A DNA stretch of 24,114 bases from IMG/VR virus record IMGVR_UViG_3300029448_005235, positions 1 through 24,114 of that record, one strand, 5' to 3'. Source of the stretch: a virus. Position numbers and translations under genes: made by a program. Position 1 is the first letter of the stretch. Every line of letters begins with the position of its first letter. Under the pieces are notes generated by a model. It saw nothing but the letters and a program-made list of their open reading frames with translations, ran no database searches and was not told the origin of the DNA. Below are positions 3,885-20,766 of the stretch, piece after piece.

Positions 3885-5167
3885 AAAAATGCCTCCAACG
3901 TATTCACTCTGATGTCTTTGAACAAATCTACAGAAGTGTCTTTACCAAAACACCAGACATTTTCCATATAAAGTTTATTCATAAACTCATCCATTTTATT
4001 TTTATCAAATTTTCCATCTTCGTCTTTGAACACAGCTGCACCTTGTGGTCTCTGCATAATTCTCATACCAATCTGTCCTAAGAAATTAGGAAGAAGCATA
4101 TCCACCAGTTCATCACCAGAATAATATCTTTTACCATGAACTTTAGGGTCTAGAATGTTAATCAACAGAACACCTTTATCACTTAGAGAATTAAAACTAT
4201 TTTGTGCAACAGGTAAGTAGAAATCATCTCTCCACGATTCGTAATCATTGAATTTTGCCCAAGACTGTAAATCTTCTTTTTCACCACCTTCATTATATCT
4301 TTCAGTCGAAAAATATGGGGGAGATGTAAATGCACAATCCACATTACTAATCTCATCCCAAGGCAAGTCCTCTGCGCCACAGTTATATATCTGCACAGTC
4401 TTTTTACCTCTAGACTTATCATAGATTTTGTCATAGAACTCAATCATTTTATGATAACGCTCAAATGTATTTGGGTTAGGGTCACAACCAATATAATGTG
4501 TTGCATTAGAGGCATAAAAACCAGTAAGTCTATCACCCCAACCCATAGAAGTATCCAATACAGTTTTCGCTCTAGTCATATCATAAATTGTTTTCGCAAC
4601 AATAGGTTTGAACTGTGTTGCAATATAAGTTCCAAGACGAAATGCCATTGTATAGGTTTGAGGTGTAAGTTCTTTTGCATCATTCACCCCTCTCCAAATA
4701 GGGCCGAACGCACCCCAAATATTATCACCTTCTTCCCAACGAGTAACTGGTGCTTTGAATCCATAAGAACCACAACGCATACGCAAATCGTTCATAAATG
4801 AATCTGCACAATAATTGAAGTTAGCTGGGCCCTCGATAAATCCTAGTCCAAAATCTTTGTATGGATATTTGTAGTCATCATACTTTTCAATTACTTCTTT
4901 TGTTGGAATATTAATGTAATCGGTGAAAGGCGCCTTTTCCAACTTACGAAAATTTTCAATAACCTTTTGATCATAGAATTTCTTTAGTGGATATGGTGGC
5001 TTTTCTTTTGTAATATACTCTGCAAGAGTGGAACGAAACAATTCTTTACCATACTTTTCTGTTGTAGAGATGAACAAAGACTTGTTCATTACTGGAAGTC
5101 CAGTATTGTCTACACACTCTCTTAATAGTTCATATAGTTCTAGATTTATTTCTGTCTTATTACTCAT
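3881..5167 (-). CDS. DNA (adenine/cytosine amino) methyltransferase-like protein with clamp-binding-like tail
   Basis: A 428-residue protein with the order of S-adenosylmethionine-dependent amino-methyltransferase motifs. Motif I-like VLDTSMGWGDRL is near residue 200, a motif II-like YIGCDPNPN follows about 25 residues later, and catalytic motif IV TSPPY is near residue 285. SPPY occurs in N4-cytosine and some N6-adenine enzymes; the motif order I then IV is not the beta-class order. About 190 N-terminal residues are unassigned and may recognise DNA. The last residues, NTLEAFF, resemble a sliding-clamp-binding peptide and the gp43 tail TTLEDFFA. Its ATG overlaps the gp43 stop (ATGA), so it is co-expressed with polymerase. 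A methyltransferase is likely; base specificity is not determined, and RNA or another substrate is possible. Confidence 0.8.
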   Translation of the reverse strand: MSNKTEINLELYELLRECVDNTGLPVMNKSLFISTTEKYGKELFRSTLAEYITKEKPPYPLKKFYDQKVIENFRKLEKAPFTDYINIPTKEVIEKYDDYKYPYKDFGLGFIEGPANFNYCADSFMNDLRMRCGSYGFKAPVTRWEEGDNIWGAFGPIWRGVNDAKELTPQTYTMAFRLGTYIATQFKPIVAKTIYDMTRAKTVLDTSMGWGDRLTGFYASNATHYIGCDPNPNTFERYHKMIEFYDKIYDKSRGKKTVQIYNCGAEDLPWDEISNVDCAFTSPPYFSTERYNEGGEKEDLQSWAKFNDYESWRDDFYLPVAQNSFNSLSDKGVLLINILDPKVHGKRYYSGDELVDMLLPNFLGQIGMRIMQRPQGAAVFKDEDGKFDKNKMDEFMNKLYMENVWCFGKDTSVDLFKDIRVNTLEAFF

Positions 5168-7662
5168 GCAAAAAAATCCTCAAGTGTAGTCTGTGTGCCA
5201 TAACTATCATCAATCTTTATTGAACTTACATCAGTGATAATCCGTAATGGTTCTATGAAAGACTTCTCAAATTGTAAGTCATAGTCGCAGGTTTTGTCAA
5301 GACCTAATCCTGTTGGTAGTTTTGTCAAAAATGATATTGATGTTGATGAATAGATGTTTGGACTTTTCATGTGTAGAAATTTAATCTTATCACCTTCTTG
5401 TATGAGAGGATACTTACTAATTAGATTGTTCTCTCTAAGAATATGATTATAGAGTATTGCACCCTTTACATGAATGGGAGCTCCCTTCTTAAATAAAACT
5501 GTTCCATCAAACCATTTTTTAAGACCATTAACTGAACGAGGATAAGCAATATCCTCTGGAGGTAGGCTCATGAACTCTGATCTGAAATCCTGTATGAACG
5601 TGTTTAATTCTTTCTCATCACCTGTCATGATAATCTTGAGTGCTTGTTTAATCTTCTCACGACATGGTGCTGGTGTTGATGACTTAACTGCTTCGATACC
5701 CATGATTTTAAGTTTGGGTTCATCATAACGAACACCTTCAATATCCCAAGCATTGAGAATATATCTTTTCTTTGCAGTCCAAATACCCTTATCAGCAATC
5801 ACCTCACGTTTCATCTGCATCTTTTGTTCATATGCATTTACATATTCAGCAAGTTCCTGATAGCACGAATCAATAAATGGTTCAATTTTTTCAGAGGCAA
5901 GCTTATCCAAGAAATTGACCACCTGTTCATTTGATGGTCGATTGTTGAATACTTTATTAACAAGTCGGTCAAAAGTAATGTACACCGAGTCTGTATCAGA
6001 AGCCAGAACGTAGTCCTCTCCTGTGGTATCAAGTATTTTATTAAGATATTCATTGATACTATTCTCAATCCATCGTATAGACAACTGACCAGAAGTAGTA
6101 ATTGCTTCAGCAATGAGTAGATTATAATACCTAAACCAATTATTACCAATTGCACCATAAGCACTATTGAGTGCAATTTTTTTGGCCATTTGTATGTTGT
6201 TATATTTGGAAATGTCTTTAAGTAATCTTCGATCTTTAGTCTGCTCATATTTTTTCTTTGCCTCAATCATTAATCGTTTATACTTCACACGATCATCATA
6301 CATTTTTTGCATAATCTCTGGCAAGAATCCCTTCTTGTCTGTTTTAAACAAAGCACCATTTGGTGTTAGTGCAACATTTTTCAGTATTGATGTATCTATT
6401 TCTTTATTTAACAATTTATCAACTGTCATACCATTAACTTTTTGTTCTCCAACTAAAGTCTCAGGTGAGATGTTATATTGCATAATTAAATGTGGATATA
6501 GAGAATTTAAATCAAATGACATTACCCAATCATGCACACCAACTTGTGGGTCTTTTACATAAGCACCCTCAAACTTTTCAGATTTTTGTTTTGACTCTTT
6601 CTGTGGAATTACAATATTCTTTTTAATCAGTTCATTGTAAATAATCATATCCCAATACTTTACTGAACCAAGAACATCCATATAGTTAACCTTTGCTTCA
6701 TAAGCCATAGTTAACAACAACTCAATTAGTTTCATCTTATCTTCAAGCTTGTCTACGATCTCTACGTCTTGAATATTATAATCAATGAACGATTGATAGT
6801 CTTTTATGTACCACTCTCTAAATGTCTCATATGGATTGTCATCTTTTCTTTCACCCAACTCAACGAACGCAATATGATCTAGTCGATACGATTCTTGATT
6901 GGTGTATGTAAACTTTCGATACAAATCATAGTAATCCAAGTGTGCAACACCTTGAATATCATACAACTGCATTTTACGACCTTTTTGAAATACCTCACGA
7001 TCACTAACTCTGCCCCATGGCGATAGTCGATTGATTTGATCTTCATCTAAAATATTTTTAATACGATTACACACATAAGGTATGTCAAAGAACTCTGTGT
7101 TCCAACCAGTGATAATGTCTGGTTGTGTACGTTCCCAAAATGATAGAAATTCTTCAATAAGATGTTTCTCATTATTACATCTTACATAAACAACATCATC
7201 TCGATTGGTTTGATATTCGTCAACACCCCAAACTAGTATTTGTTTGTTCTGATGATTTTTAATTGTGATAGACAGTAGAGGTTCGATTGCTTCCTCTGGA
7301 TTAGGAAAACCATTTTCACAAGCAACCTCAATATCAATAGTCACCATAATCAGTTTTTCAATATCCCAATCAACTACACCAGTGTAATTGTCTGATAGAA
7401 AACTGTATTGATATAACGTGTTACCCATTACCATGTGTGGCTGGTCTGAGTATTGTTTTACCCACTCACGAGCATCTTTAATGGTCTCATGTTGAATTGG
7501 TGCAACATTCCTACCATCTAAAGTTTTATAGCCTGTTTCTTTCGCAACTGGGCAGAATAGTGTTGGGGAATACTTTACTCTACGATTGATACGTTTACCA
7601 TCTTTGTACTCTCGTAAAAGTAAATAGTTACCCCACGTTGATACGTTGGTATAAAAATTCAT
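5164..7662 (-). CDS. 43: Family B DNA polymerase gp43
   Basis: The replicative polymerase with proofreading exonuclease. The 832 residues carry the exonuclease I motif TIDIEVAC (near 108), polymerase motif A DLNSLYPHLI (near 390), motif B with LNSAYGAIGNNWFRYY (near 505) and motif C ASDTDSVYI (near 560). T4 gp43 is 898 residues; marine T4-like versions are often somewhat shorter. The C-terminus QTTLEDFFA fits a PIP-like clamp-binding peptide (Q-x-x-L-x-x-F-F). The N-terminus aligns with the start of T4 gp43, supporting the ATG at 7660-7662. There is no Shine-Dalgarno and a promoter -10 lies six bases upstream, so its message may be leaderless. It heads the operon gp43, methyltransferase, GNAT, ParB-like, uvsX, 96-residue gene, gp41. 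Confidence 0.97.
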   Translation of the reverse strand: MNFYTNVSTWGNYLLLREYKDGKRINRRVKYSPTLFCPVAKETGYKTLDGRNVAPIQHETIKDAREWVKQYSDQPHMVMGNTLYQYSFLSDNYTGVVDWDIEKLIMVTIDIEVACENGFPNPEEAIEPLLSITIKNHQNKQILVWGVDEYQTNRDDVVYVRCNNEKHLIEEFLSFWERTQPDIITGWNTEFFDIPYVCNRIKNILDEDQINRLSPWGRVSDREVFQKGRKMQLYDIQGVAHLDYYDLYRKFTYTNQESYRLDHIAFVELGERKDDNPYETFREWYIKDYQSFIDYNIQDVEIVDKLEDKMKLIELLLTMAYEAKVNYMDVLGSVKYWDMIIYNELIKKNIVIPQKESKQKSEKFEGAYVKDPQVGVHDWVMSFDLNSLYPHLIMQYNISPETLVGEQKVNGMTVDKLLNKEIDTSILKNVALTPNGALFKTDKKGFLPEIMQKMYDDRVKYKRLMIEAKKKYEQTKDRRLLKDISKYNNIQMAKKIALNSAYGAIGNNWFRYYNLLIAEAITTSGQLSIRWIENSINEYLNKILDTTGEDYVLASDTDSVYITFDRLVNKVFNNRPSNEQVVNFLDKLASEKIEPFIDSCYQELAEYVNAYEQKMQMKREVIADKGIWTAKKRYILNAWDIEGVRYDEPKLKIMGIEAVKSSTPAPCREKIKQALKIIMTGDEKELNTFIQDFRSEFMSLPPEDIAYPRSVNGLKKWFDGTVLFKKGAPIHVKGAILYNHILRENNLISKYPLIQEGDKIKFLHMKSPNIYSSTSISFLTKLPTGLGLDKTCDYDLQFEKSFIEPLRIITDVSSIKIDDSYGTQTTLEDFFA

Positions 7663-7667
7663 AAGTT

Positions 7668-7697
7668 ATCATAATATATTTGGGCAAGTTTTGTCAA
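7668..7697 (-). promoter_or_regulatory. Sigma70-type promoter for gp43 operon
   Basis: Reading the minus strand, TTGACA (7692-7697) is followed after exactly 18 bases by TATGAT (7668-7673). The -35 overlaps the iscU stop codon. The expected start of transcription falls at about the gp43 ATG. It shares TTGACAAAAC and the 18-bp spacer with the promoters near 13.6 kb and 15.9 kb. Confidence 0.65.
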
Positions 7698-8074
7698 ATG
7701 TTTTTTTGTTGATAGTCTTTTATTGCCGATTGAATTGCGTCTTCTGCTAATACTGAACAGTGAATTTTTACAGGTGGTAGTGCTAGTTCTTCAGCAATAT
7801 CAACATTCTTGATTTGTTTTGCTTCGTCTAGTGTTCGACCCTTTACCCACTCAGTAAGCAGAGATGATGATGCGATTGCTGAGCCACAACCATATGTCTT
7901 AAATTTTGCGTCTACGATTACTCCATCATTATTCACTTGTATTTGAAGTTTCATTACATCACCACAAGCTGGAGCACCAACCATGCCAGTGCCCACATTC
8001 TTGTCGTCTTTGTCTAGACTTCCAACATTTCGTGGATTTTCGTAGTGGTCTAATACCTTTTCGCCGTATGCCAT
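7694..8074 (-). CDS. iscU: IscU/NifU-N-type iron-sulfur cluster scaffold
   Basis: The product resembles the housekeeping scaffold on which [2Fe-2S] clusters are built from IscS sulfur before transfer to client proteins with HscA/HscB. The 126 residues keep every key position of IscU at the same numbers as in E. coli: Cys37 with Asp39 (GAPACGD), Cys63 (YGCGSA), and His105-Cys106 (KIHCS). The HscA recognition motif LPPVK is at 99-103. No IscS, HscA or ferredoxin gene is nearby, so it would work with host partners. The ATG follows the regA stop directly and GAGAAG provides a ribosome site. An intact scaffold in a phage replication operon is unusual; it may serve host Fe-S supply or the phage's iron-dependent proteins. 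Family and integrity are clear. Confidence 0.95.
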   Translation of the reverse strand: MAYGEKVLDHYENPRNVGSLDKDDKNVGTGMVGAPACGDVMKLQIQVNNDGVIVDAKFKTYGCGSAIASSSLLTEWVKGRTLDEAKQIKNVDIAEELALPPVKIHCSVLAEDAIQSAIKDYQQKNI

Positions 8075-8458
8075 TTATTCTTCTCGTTTCTTACCAATGT
8101 TATATTTAGTTTCTAACTCCCATTCATTTTTTTCTTTGAATGGAATTATTTTAATTTGACTTAAAGGAGCTGACTCACCTTTACTTGTGAGTATGTTAAC
8201 TAAACCCCATTCCTCAAGTAAACTAGCTATTGTATTACGTCTTGCAATATCATTTTCACTAATGTCAGTTTGCTTACCATCTAGTGAAAACAACTCTTTA
8301 AAATGTACAATGTAATAACGGCCCTGTTTGTGTAATATGTGGCATGATTGGTATAATTTTTTTTCTTTTCTAGACGCCACTCCAATACGAGACAGTGTTT
8401 CTCTTATCTTGAGAAAATCATCTGGCTCGTTTAGTTTTACTTCAAGCATACTATCCAT
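8075..8458 (-). CDS. regA: RegA translational repressor
   Basis: RegA binds the ribosome-binding regions of many early phage mRNAs, including clamp-loader messages in T4, and blocks translation. The product (127 residues) matches T4 RegA along its length, including LYQSCHILHKQGRYYIVHFK in the centre and LLEEWGL toward the C-terminal half. I prefer the ATG at 8456-8458, nine bases after AAGG; a GTG three codons upstream would leave no ribosome-site spacing. This ATG overlaps the gp62 stop by eight bases (ATGGATAG), the same overlap size as the two preceding junctions. The order gp45-44-62-regA-43 is the T4 order, interrupted here by accessory genes. Targets in this phage are unknown. Confidence 0.94.
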   Translation of the reverse strand: MDSMLEVKLNEPDDFLKIRETLSRIGVASRKEKKLYQSCHILHKQGRYYIVHFKELFSLDGKQTDISENDIARRNTIASLLEEWGLVNILTSKGESAPLSQIKIIPFKEKNEWELETKYNIGKKREE

Positions 8459-8840
8459 TTTTTCCACCCTTGTTCAATCTATCCTTGATAAATTGTATTT
8501 GTTCATCATTGAGTACATCAAGAGCGGACTTTGCTTTTTCATTGTTGTATCCATAATACTCTTTAACATACTGTAAGTTTGTTACCTTACTCGCCTTCAA
8601 CCAAGCAGTGTATCTTTTACGAGGTCTAAGAGTATTTAGAAGAAAATCAAATTGTAACTTATTGTCGAGGTGAGATCGCATGTTTATCTCATTTACAAAC
8701 TGTATTGTATCTGGAAATGGTGCAAGACACTTATTGACAATAAATGCTGGATACTTTTTTGTCCATGCTTCATCTTCACTATCCATCAATTTCTCTTTAG
8801 TCGTATTGATGGCATTTAGATATTCTTTTAGTTCATACAT
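8451..8840 (-). CDS. 62: Clamp loader small subunit gp62
   Basis: The product (129 residues, against 187 in T4) resembles the compact gp62 of marine T4-like phages. A central stretch with YPAFIVNKCLAPFPDTI and LLNTLRPRKRYTAWLK corresponds to the conserved part of gp62, and position before regA fits. It completes the gp44/gp62 clamp loader that opens gp45. The ATG overlaps the psiE stop by eight bases (ATGTATGA) and there is no strong Shine-Dalgarno, so translation should be coupled to the upstream gene. Its first residues, ELKEYLN, are repeated at the start of PsiE because the junction is duplicated in DNA. Identification is good, resting partly on gene order. Confidence 0.85.
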   Translation of the reverse strand: MYELKEYLNAINTTKEKLMDSEDEAWTKKYPAFIVNKCLAPFPDTIQFVNEINMRSHLDNKLQFDFLLNTLRPRKRYTAWLKASKVTNLQYVKEYYGYNNEKAKSALDVLNDEQIQFIKDRLNKGGKNG

Positions 8841-8847
8841 CTTTTTT
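8814..8847. repeat. 34-bp direct repeat, copy A (gp62 start junction)
   Basis: This copy spans the psiE stop, the gp62 start and the first codons of gp62. It matches 9253-9286 at 32 of 34 positions; the two differences are adjacent (TA here, CG in copy B on the plus strand). Both copies contain the overlap form ATGNNTGA. Confidence 0.95.
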
Positions 8848-9279
8848 ATCTCTTAGTTTTTCTTTTTCTAAACTGAGTTTATCTTTAAAACTTATCACAT
8901 AAGCTGCACCTGCTAGAATGGCAACGGCACCTGCTTCTGCAAGAAGCATCAGTGGGTCTGCTTCCTTACTATGAAGAACAATAAGTCTACACAATGCTGT
9001 CATAGCAATGATGATAGGTAGTGTAACAGGAATTCGATTACTAACGTAAAAGGCACCAACCATACCAATAATCTCAGCGTATATAAACAACAGAAATAAG
9101 TCACCCAGTTCCACTTTTAGATTTAAAATCATGTGATAAACATCTATACCAGCCGCAAACATTGTTAGTGTACCTATGACTGCTAGTAGAAGTTTTTCAC
9201 TCCACAATGTTGTCCAGTGTAGTTTTTCATTTGTGATTTTCATCTTTGTAGAATTTAGATATTCTTTTAGTTCACGCAT
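8833..9279 (-). CDS. psiE: PsiE-family (phosphate-starvation-inducible) membrane protein
   Basis: A 148-residue membrane protein with about four hydrophobic segments: LLLAVIGTLTMFAAGI, LGDLFLLFIYAEIIGMVGAF, LPIIIAMTALCRLIVL and LMLLAEAGAVAILAGAAYVI. The pattern LLFIYAEIIGM...IPVTLPIIIAMTALCRLIVL is that of the PsiE family, whose E. coli member is induced by phosphate starvation and has no settled function. It should sit in the host inner membrane. I place the start at ATG 9277-9279, eight bases overlapping the oxygenase stop (ATGCGTGA), not at codons further upstream. The gene lies between oxygenase and gp62 and is bounded by a 34-bp duplication, so it looks inserted. Its first residues, MRELKEYLN, are gp62-derived and not typical PsiE. 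The family call is fairly confident. Confidence 0.82.
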   Translation of the reverse strand: MRELKEYLNSTKMKITNEKLHWTTLWSEKLLLAVIGTLTMFAAGIDVYHMILNLKVELGDLFLLFIYAEIIGMVGAFYVSNRIPVTLPIIIAMTALCRLIVLHSKEADPLMLLAEAGAVAILAGAAYVISFKDKLSLEKEKLRDKKDV

Positions 9280-9286
9280 CTTTTTT
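9253..9286. repeat. 34-bp direct repeat, copy B (psiE start junction)
   Basis: Second copy of the repeat at 8814-8847, with 32 of 34 positions identical. It spans the oxygenase stop, the psiE start and the first psiE codons. The two copies bracket psiE almost exactly. Confidence 0.95.
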
Positions 9287-9784
9287 CTTACACTTAAAAA
9301 CAACACATGTTCTTAATTCATAGCACTGTCGTGACACTGGCATTGCTTGGTGTGGTAGAACTGCATCAAATACAGCAATTCGATTACCAACATAATCTAC
9401 ATACTGTGGTAGATATGGTGACTCAACCAGTGTACCACCAGCCCATTCTTTTTTCCAATCCAGTCTTGGATAGTAAATGACTGTAACGTCACCATCATCT
9501 GTGTGTAGGTGTGGTTCAATACCATGCGTATGTGCGTTCATGTAAATACGAATATAATCATAGTCTGATAAATATTTTGATCGTATTGTTTCCCAAAGTT
9601 GTGGAATGTAATCAAATCCATTTGAATTACATTCTTCATTATCATGACCACATAAAACATGCCAGTGGCGATTAACTCTATTGGCATGTGATTTGTAATT
9701 ATATTTCCATGACACATCTCTCATTTGCAGGTCTATAAGTTCTGCCACATGTGGTTCTAATACATTATCATATACTTCTAACAT
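9272..9784 (-). CDS. 2-oxoglutarate/Fe(II)-dependent oxygenase
   Basis: A 170-residue member of the 2OG-Fe(II) oxygenase superfamily. The iron facial triad is visible as H94-x-D96 (in EPHLHTDDG) and H145 (in LPHQAMPV), and R158 (in ELRTCVVF) is a candidate for binding the 2-oxoglutarate carboxylate. WAGGTL and the strand FDAVLPH give the double-stranded beta-helix layout. Such genes are common in marine T4-like phages, with substrates mostly unknown; nucleic acid, protein or small-molecule hydroxylation are all possible. Its ATG directly abuts a TAG at 9785-9787 that ends the out-of-frame tail of the preceding small gene, and I see no Shine-Dalgarno. It sits between gp44 and gp62, splitting the clamp-loader genes. 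Confidence 0.87.
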   Translation of the reverse strand: MLEVYDNVLEPHVAELIDLQMRDVSWKYNYKSHANRVNRHWHVLCGHDNEECNSNGFDYIPQLWETIRSKYLSDYDYIRIYMNAHTHGIEPHLHTDDGDVTVIYYPRLDWKKEWAGGTLVESPYLPQYVDYVGNRIAVFDAVLPHQAMPVSRQCYELRTCVVFKCKKKDA

Positions 9785-10145: not shown

Positions 10146-11081
10146 CTACTTAAACTTTACTTGAGCCATGATCTCAGTTAGACAGGCAAGCATATTGATT
10201 TCTTGGTCTGCAACAAAGGCAGATTTGTACGAATAATCGGCAATAATAACTACAGCATGAGGTATGGTTGATGGGTCTAATACTTCATACAATGAGTCAT
10301 ATATTTTTCGATAAACACGAGATGGGTCGTTATCTAGATTGTTAACAATCCACTTTCGTACTTGAGTAAACTCTTTTTCCTTGAGAGATGTCATTAGTTC
10401 ATTTATACTCACATCAGACAAGTTCACAAGTATACCACTATCTATTGTTCCCGAAACAGAGTATCTTTGTATCTCATTCAACACTCTACGCCAATCGGGA
10501 AAGAACTTCATAACCAACTCAATCAAAACCTTCTTATCATAGTTCACGTTTTCGTTTACAAGAATGTTCTCCAAACGTGTAAGAAAAAATGATGCTAGTT
10601 TAGGTTTCTGTTCAGTTGGAATAGTAAACTCAACCACTGAACAACGTGAATGTAGTGGTTCGATTAACCTGTTTTTGTAATTACAAGTTAGTATGAACCC
10701 ACAGTTACGATGAAATTCTTCCATGAAACCACGAAGTGCTGGTTGAGTTGATTGTGGATTTAGATAGTCGGCCTCATCAAGAATGATATATTTTCGACCA
10801 CCCTCAAGTGATACTGTAGATGCAAAGTTTTTAATCTTGGTGCGAAGTACATCAATACCTGATTCCTCAGAACCATTTATCATCATACTTGTTGCTCCAA
10901 TTTCATCTAGTACCGCCTTTGCAATTGTAGTTTTACCCACGCCAGGCCCACCTGATAGAATCAGATTAGGAACATGTTTGTCATTAACAAATTGTTGAAA
11001 TGTATCCTTTAGATCACTAGGAAGAATACAATCACTGACACTAGTTGGGCGATATTTCTCTACCCATAAAAATGTTTCCAT
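10146..11081 (-). CDS. 44: Clamp loader large subunit gp44
   Basis: An AAA+ ATPase of the RFC/DnaX class (311 residues, close to T4's 319) that with gp62 loads the gp45 clamp at primer ends. It shows LWVEKYRPTSVSDC at the N-terminus (the RFC-box I pattern), Walker A GGPGVGKTT near residue 45, Walker B IILDEADYL near residue 98, the sensor-1-like FILTCNY, and an SRC-type arginine finger (PLHSRC). AGGAG stands directly after the gp45 stop and precedes the ATG. It is followed by three accessory genes before gp62, whereas in T4 the two loader genes are adjacent. Confidence 0.97.
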   Translation of the reverse strand: METFLWVEKYRPTSVSDCILPSDLKDTFQQFVNDKHVPNLILSGGPGVGKTTIAKAVLDEIGATSMMINGSEESGIDVLRTKIKNFASTVSLEGGRKYIILDEADYLNPQSTQPALRGFMEEFHRNCGFILTCNYKNRLIEPLHSRCSVVEFTIPTEQKPKLASFFLTRLENILVNENVNYDKKVLIELVMKFFPDWRRVLNEIQRYSVSGTIDSGILVNLSDVSINELMTSLKEKEFTQVRKWIVNNLDNDPSRVYRKIYDSLYEVLDPSTIPHAVVIIADYSYKSAFVADQEINMLACLTEIMAQVKFK

Positions 11082-13568: not shown

Positions 13569-13598
13569 ATTATACTGGGCTGGAGCATGTTTTGTCAA
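13569..13598 (-). promoter_or_regulatory. Sigma70-type promoter for cobS-like gene
   Basis: Minus strand TTGACA (13593-13598), 18-bp spacer, TATAAT (13569-13574), both elements perfect. GCCTTGACAAAACATGC is shared exactly with the promoter at 15923-15952. The -35 lies in the loop of an imperfect inverted repeat (GGGCTGGAGC and GCTCCAACCC), a possible operator. The predicted leader is about 25 bases. Confidence 0.85.
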
Positions 13599-13636
13599 GG
13601 CTCCAACCCCCTGATTTATAAGTAGTTTTAAAAAAA

Positions 13637-15922: not shown

Positions 15923-15952
15923 ATTTTAAGGTATAGAGGCATGTTTTGTCAA
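15923..15952 (-). promoter_or_regulatory. Sigma70-type promoter for VWA gene
   Basis: Minus strand TTGACA (15947-15952), 18-bp spacer, TAAAAT (15923-15928). It shares 17 identical bases around the -35 with the cobS promoter. The predicted leader is about 20 bases and includes the GAGAGG ribosome site. Confidence 0.75.
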
Positions 15953-15996
15953 GGCTACAACATACTGATTTTTGGTGAGTTTATAAAATAATTTAA

Positions 15997-20732: not shown

Positions 20733-20762
20733 ATTATAAAGGATACACACAGGGTATGTCAA
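20733..20762 (-). promoter_or_regulatory. Sigma70-type promoter for gp55 operon
   Basis: Minus strand TTGACA (20757-20762), 18-bp spacer, TATAAT (20733-20738), both perfect consensus. The -35 is one half of the 16-bp palindrome TGTCAAGGCCTTGACA (20757-20772). The leader before gp55 is about 20-25 bases. Confidence 0.88.
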
Positions 20763-20766
20763 GGCC

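Follow-up and report, generated by a model that had tools for sequence, protein, structure and literature searches.

Several described systems insert genes at gene borders with a recognizable scar. In fungal mitochondria, mobile endonuclease open reading frames (ORFs) are known from Allomyces atp6 and from Glomus atp6, atp9, cox2, and nad3 (PMC3630166). In T4-like phages, free-standing homing endonucleases (mobE, mobA, and seg) are found at core-gene junctions, the nrdA/mobE stop/start overlap (UAAUGA) suggests coupling, and the known transposition-like endonuclease cases split the target gene, with no duplication mentioned (PMC2988022). Modular shuffling in T4-type phages has also been linked to promoter early stem-loop (PeSL) elements (Arbiol 2010 and Comeau 2014, as summarized in PMC4503421). 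T4-type phages rely on recombination to initiate replication, and uptake of foreign DNA is expected by that path (PMC2993671); that the T4 clamp-loader genes are translationally coupled is described as established (PMC2988022, citing Torgov 1998).

In the marine T4-like phage analysed here, psiE is very probably an immigrant gene that was inserted exactly at the gp62 start, with 34 bp of the oxygenase-gp62 junction being duplicated as it entered. As in the fungal mobile ORFs, the insertion is flanked by two partial copies of the target gene, which itself stays whole; in contrast, the fungal elements duplicate the 3′ end of their target and carry an endonuclease (PMC3630166), whereas the phage insertion duplicated the 5′ end and has psiE as its cargo, with only psiE lying between the copies. 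The position at a core-gene junction is shared with the T4-like free-standing homing endonucleases, whose transposition-like cases differ from this one in splitting the target and in their nuclease cargo. Repeated regulatory sequence at a gene border, tied to gene gain and loss, is a likeness to the PeSL system as PMC4503421 summarizes it; unlike the promoter/stem-loop cassettes outlined there, however, the repeat at psiE is a translation start-stop junction with no promoter and no notable hairpin, no strong minus-strand promoter or terminator was found at the repeated border, and the folds there were ordinary. The locus also differs from a classical moron, as no convincing promoter or terminator of its own was found around psiE, and from a transposon or insertion sequence, as psiE is the sole gene and no transposase was found.

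The window, meaning the whole 24,114-nt stretch, is part of a 31-kb virus record and contains a minus-strand replication block in the order gp45, gp44, a 92-aa ORF, a 2OG oxygenase-like gene, psiE, gp62, regA, a nifU-like gene, and gp43. The features on which the argument rests are the following:

10146–11081, minus strand: gp44, clamp-loader ATPase (phrog_168, E 2.6e-120)
9272–9784, minus strand: 2OG-Fe(II) oxygenase-like gene, upstream of psiE (PF13640, E 0.0015, below the cut-off; phrog_274, E 7e-20)
9253–9286, minus strand: upstream, derived junction copy, oxygenase end plus psiE codons 1–9 (MRELKEYLN)
9272–9279, minus strand: 8-base overlap ATGCGTGA of the oxygenase stop and the psiE start, read from the sequence
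8833–9279, minus strand: psiE, 148 aa, PsiE-family membrane protein (PF06146, E 1.4e-18, above the cut-off)
9253–9279, minus strand: gp62-derived codons 1–9 of psiE (absent from 76 PsiE relatives, present in gp62 relatives)
8848–9243, minus strand: psiE core, where the alignment to PsiE relatives begins
8833–8847, minus strand: psiE tail KKDV-stop, originating in the oxygenase tail (in other PsiE proteins, LR is not followed by KKDV)
8814–8847, minus strand: downstream junction copy, psiE end plus gp62 codons 1–9 (MYELKEYLN), with the ATGTATGA that is common in relatives
8451–8840, minus strand: intact gp62, small clamp-loader subunit (PF16790, E 7.7e-11; phrog_225, E 1.7e-42)
8075–8467, minus strand: regA translational repressor, downstream of gp62 (PF01818, E 1.8e-44)

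Both key assignments exceeded their profile cut-offs, with 67.7 bits for PsiE (PF06146, cut-off 23.9) and 43 bits for gp62 (PF16790, cut-off 27), the latter lying in the gp44/regA interval with regA next downstream. The gp44-gp62 gap is a variable region whose gene content differs among phages, including oxygenases, a methyltransferase-like gene, and an acetyltransferase-like gene; in one contig (L027, 3097–3543), an endonuclease VII-like gene (PF02945) occupies it directly upstream of gp62, with the ATGTATGA overlap. Elsewhere in the window, a minus-strand motif around TTGACAAAAC with TATAAT-like hexamers recurs at 7668–7700, 13569–13601, 15923–15955, and 20733–20765, upstream of gp43 and three other genes, and its copies resemble sigma-70-type promoters.

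The initial annotation had claimed a 34-bp duplication around psiE, and this was borne out at 32 of 34 identical bases, with each copy made up, as proposed, of the end of the upstream gene, an 8-base overlap, and the start of the next gene, with ELKEYLN encoded in both. Read 5′ to 3′, each copy consists of AAAAAAG followed by ATGNNTGA ACTAAAAGAATATCTAAAT, with 7 bases ahead of the ATG and then nine codons (27 bases) counted from it, and includes the ATGNNTGA overlap together with the final four codons and the stop codon of the gene upstream. In the frame of that gene the copy begins exactly at a codon boundary and encodes KKDA-stop at the oxygenase end and KKDV-stop at the PsiE end, the oxygenase C-terminus (...VVFKCKKKDA-stop) lying inside the upstream copy. 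The two mismatches are adjacent and distinguish ATGTATGA in gp62 from ATGCGTGA in psiE. Between the copies is a 439-bp unit with psiE as its sole gene, and the expectation that deletion from one copy to the other would restore the junction holds, since an intact oxygenase and an intact gp62 would be left.

Chance was rejected as the origin of the repeat: given its base composition, the window should contain about 1e-7 such pairs, and shuffled upstream DNA reached at most 25/40, against 34/40 observed. The seven ELKEYLN codons would also agree synonymously by chance with a probability of about 0.003 under the codon usage of the window; because the synonymous codons are identical, the repeat points to common DNA, and a shared peptide constraint is unlikely to account for it by itself. 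An assembly artefact was likewise rejected because five further IMG/VR contigs from different metagenomes, separately assembled, have the same arrangement, with the repeat cores unchanged in all five. No Rfam element was found at the junction, and RNA folding at the two junctions was not unusual (z −0.15 and −0.99).

The polarity of the duplication is clear from comparison with relatives: the gp62 copy is ancestral and the psiE copy derived, because the gp62 start is conserved. MYELK-[DE]-YL is kept at nearly all of ∼200 gp62 sites in marine phage contigs (surveys covered 186–208 distinct sites), and the commonest starts among 208 distinct IMG/VR sites were MYELKDYLN (94), MYELKDYLK (50), and MYELKEYLN (27). 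At the two differing bases, the gp62 state, ATGTATGA, is ancestral and is the common gp62 start in relatives. PsiE proteins elsewhere with a gp62-type start, which would have contradicted this reading, were sought, and LK[DE]YL occurred in 0/76 relatives, of which 16 came from viral contigs and 60 from genome contigs of bacteria or archaea; no flanking start repeat was found at seven PsiE loci in other contexts.

By these alignments psiE is itself chimeric at both ends, with a gp62 start prefix and an oxygenase tail. The core runs MKITNEKLHWTT...LRD, and the ATG at 9241–9243 was probably the original start, because alignment to relatives begins around MKITNEKLHWTT; the KKDV-stop was copied from the oxygenase side, because the nearest oxygenases have a KKD tail. 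PsiE is 53–78% identical to 21 viral and bacterial relatives over matched stretches, and the nearest cellular relative, at 78% identity, is on a SAR116 contig. An AF2 model consists of long helices with a mean pLDDT of 84, the gp62-derived prefix being among its least confident parts, and a PDB fold search with this model returned nothing at E ≤ 0.001. Among isolated phages, PsiE gave four weak matches, one of which was inspected and none of which was shown in this gene context, and the terms used in a literature search found no papers on phage PsiE. In three other contigs (L097, L098, and L099, ∼4001–4430), a PsiE gene lies just upstream of gp47, with a 23-base overlap of the psiE end and the gp47 start.

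The single oxygenase-gp62 junction predicted for phages without psiE was seen in ten contigs. In L107, L108, L142, and L146, the oxygenase is 59–62% identical and ends VVFKTN[VI]KKD-stop, two bases before the gp62 ATGTATGA; in L110, L129, L131, L178, L179, and L181, the oxygenase stop falls within the same ATGTATGA overlap. Oxygenase tails that directly precede gp62 in relatives are ...VVFKTNVKKD or ...VVFKCHV. The picture is that of a junction-duplicating insertion: the filled site has two copies and the empty sites have one, the sequences match, and the duplicated segment is foreign to PsiE relatives; the proposed entry of psiE at the gp62 start is supported by these empty sites and by the PsiE relatives without a gp62 start. 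No near psiE-free relative was found in the collections searched, in which gp62 identity falls from 100% to ∼79% and oxygenase identity from 99% to 62%.

The arrangement is fixed in the five near-identical contigs and stable across six assemblies; the four contigs measured are 99.0–99.95% identical to the window over the main aligned blocks, psiE is present in all five contigs with a 99–100% identical oxygenase, and no excised form was seen. The substitution pattern indicates that the psiE core is under purifying selection, because synonymous changes outnumber non-synonymous ones (7:1 between the window and L003) and, against other phage PsiE genes, dN (0.10–0.12) is far below dS (1.3–2.1).

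Template switching or break repair is the best-fitting route. Synthesis would have passed the oxygenase end and gp62 codons 1–9, switched to a psiE-bearing template just upstream of psiE’s own ATG, copied almost all of psiE, and then jumped back to a position in the oxygenase tail that lies upstream of where it had left; the product would read oxygenase, gp62 start plus psiE plus oxygenase tail, and gp62, and the resident genes would lose no base. The outcome would look the same if a staggered break had been filled in around captured psiE DNA. The order of the template switches is a reconstruction because the searches turned up no donor DNA carrying these exact breakpoints. The copied start gives psiE an initiation site overlapping the upstream stop, and psiE ends on the copied tail and stop and passes to gp62 via an equivalent 8-base overlap. 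The overlap at both starts is consistent with a translationally coupled pair; coupling is proposed because no convincing promoter or terminator was found across the oxygenase-psiE-gp62 stretch, the T4 clamp-loader genes are coupled, and both starts sit on an upstream stop, and it probably made the insertion tolerable. As in T4 44-62, the gp62 start overlaps the stop of the preceding gene inside a clamp-loader operon; unlike T4, the gp62 start is doubled and its upstream partner is psiE, not gp44.

When all gene starts in 2.15 Mb of fetched phage contigs were compared pairwise, one more strict case was recovered, at 532–2522 of L184 (IMGVR_UViG_3300001097_000680), where the gene for a NUMOD3/GIY-YIG homing endonuclease (PF07460, E 7e-22) separates a truncated start from the intact copy of a neck/head-tail adaptor gene, the first bases of the start copy matching at 42/45. 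The remaining matches were rejected as internal motifs of paralogous oxygenases or of endonuclease repeats. Contig L001 (IMGVR_UViG_3300020440_001380) matches the window at 99.95% identity as far as the regA end and has, at ∼4764–5418, a ∼640-bp insertion with an HNH/homing-endonuclease-like gene between regA and nifU; the first ∼37 bases of its nifU are recoded, and the new ORF begins with a nifU-like IDHYEN segment (17/22 to the window nifU, 20/22 to that of L020). This is probably an older scar around the HNH-like gene, and a weaker case than L184. Both resemble the fungal mobile ORFs (PMC3630166) in their endonuclease cargo and in the partial copy of the target gene that comes with it, but the copied part is the 5′ end.

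At gp62 itself, the psiE scar was found in a single lineage among 186 sites, so gp62 is not established as a general docking site, and no other non-homologous gene there had a duplicated gp62 start, apart from a mini-ORF family. This 39-aa family (MYELKVKNGTY...HR..H...GEGF.D; L079 3882–4001, L133, L149, L187, and others) is common in marine phage contigs, has no Pfam or PHROG match, lies directly upstream of gp62 in many phages, and occurs there in one member but not the other of near-isogenic pairs (L147/L155, a 119-bp indel with 17 bp shared). A second gp62-start duplication was rejected for it: copies far from gp62 also begin MYELKVK, diverged members begin KYTLKV or MYTLKVP, the start being the family’s own, and its MYELK was at most pre-existing microhomology.

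Other histories of the psiE junction were weighed against this background. That the duplication arose in another phage, with the finished cassette of gp62 start, psiE, and junction arriving by homologous recombination, is somewhat unlikely; T4-like phages recombine freely, and endonuclease-gene and mini-ORF content nearby varies between near-identical backgrounds, but the same cassette was not found in any other phage, and the two copies and their flanks look native to this lineage. L184 and L001 make a nuclease-linked origin possible, in which a homing endonuclease cleaved the gp62 start and psiE came in as the break was repaired, or psiE replaced an endonuclease gene lodged there. The same kind of scar surrounds the L184 gene, the L001 gene comes with a nifU-start-like remnant and a recoded nifU start, and the endonuclease VII-type gene of L027 sits immediately 5′ of gp62; however, no endonuclease was found in the psiE cassette or beside gp62 in this lineage, and the second gp62 start lacks the recoding expected for protection from cleavage, leaving this account unlikely.

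A tandem duplication of the gp62 5′ end, with psiE landing later in the spare copy, would also explain a start fragment that stops after codon 9 followed by a second full junction, but it requires two events, and a bare partial gp62 duplication was found at none of 186 sites, making it quite improbable. Convergence, in which selection favoured a good coupled initiation site separately in each of the two genes, has some footing in the mini-ORF family, which independently has a MYELK start, beside gp62 and elsewhere, and in the gp62 start sequence, which may itself be selected. The gp62 Leu4 codon ends in A or G, giving a +1-frame stop, at 183/189 sites in the fetched loci (Leu8, 102/187), a bias whose test value overstates significance because the sites are related, and which may have other causes; the start also stops other frames, with TGA at bases 6–8 in one and, in the other, TAA or TGA at bases 11–13, the stop that the Leu4 codons produce. 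Against convergence, the match extends over nine codons that use the same synonymous variants and over a further seven bases upstream, and the start is absent in all 76 PsiE relatives, so that convergence is extremely improbable.

Insertion of psiE at the gp62 start with duplication of the junction, the preferred reading, leaves a readable scar, in which the copied bases, their source and order, and both chimeric gene ends are visible. The border of an essential replication gene can accept cargo without loss, because the border itself was copied. The similar scars at two endonuclease insertions suggest that nuclease cutting and gene gain may be linked in a testable way. It is an unlikely proposal that duplication of the downstream gene's start is a recurring insertion route for T4-like phages and their homing endonucleases in tight operons, with psiE as ordinary cargo; if true, the insert would take over the start that overlaps the upstream stop, while a second start would be provided for the target gene.
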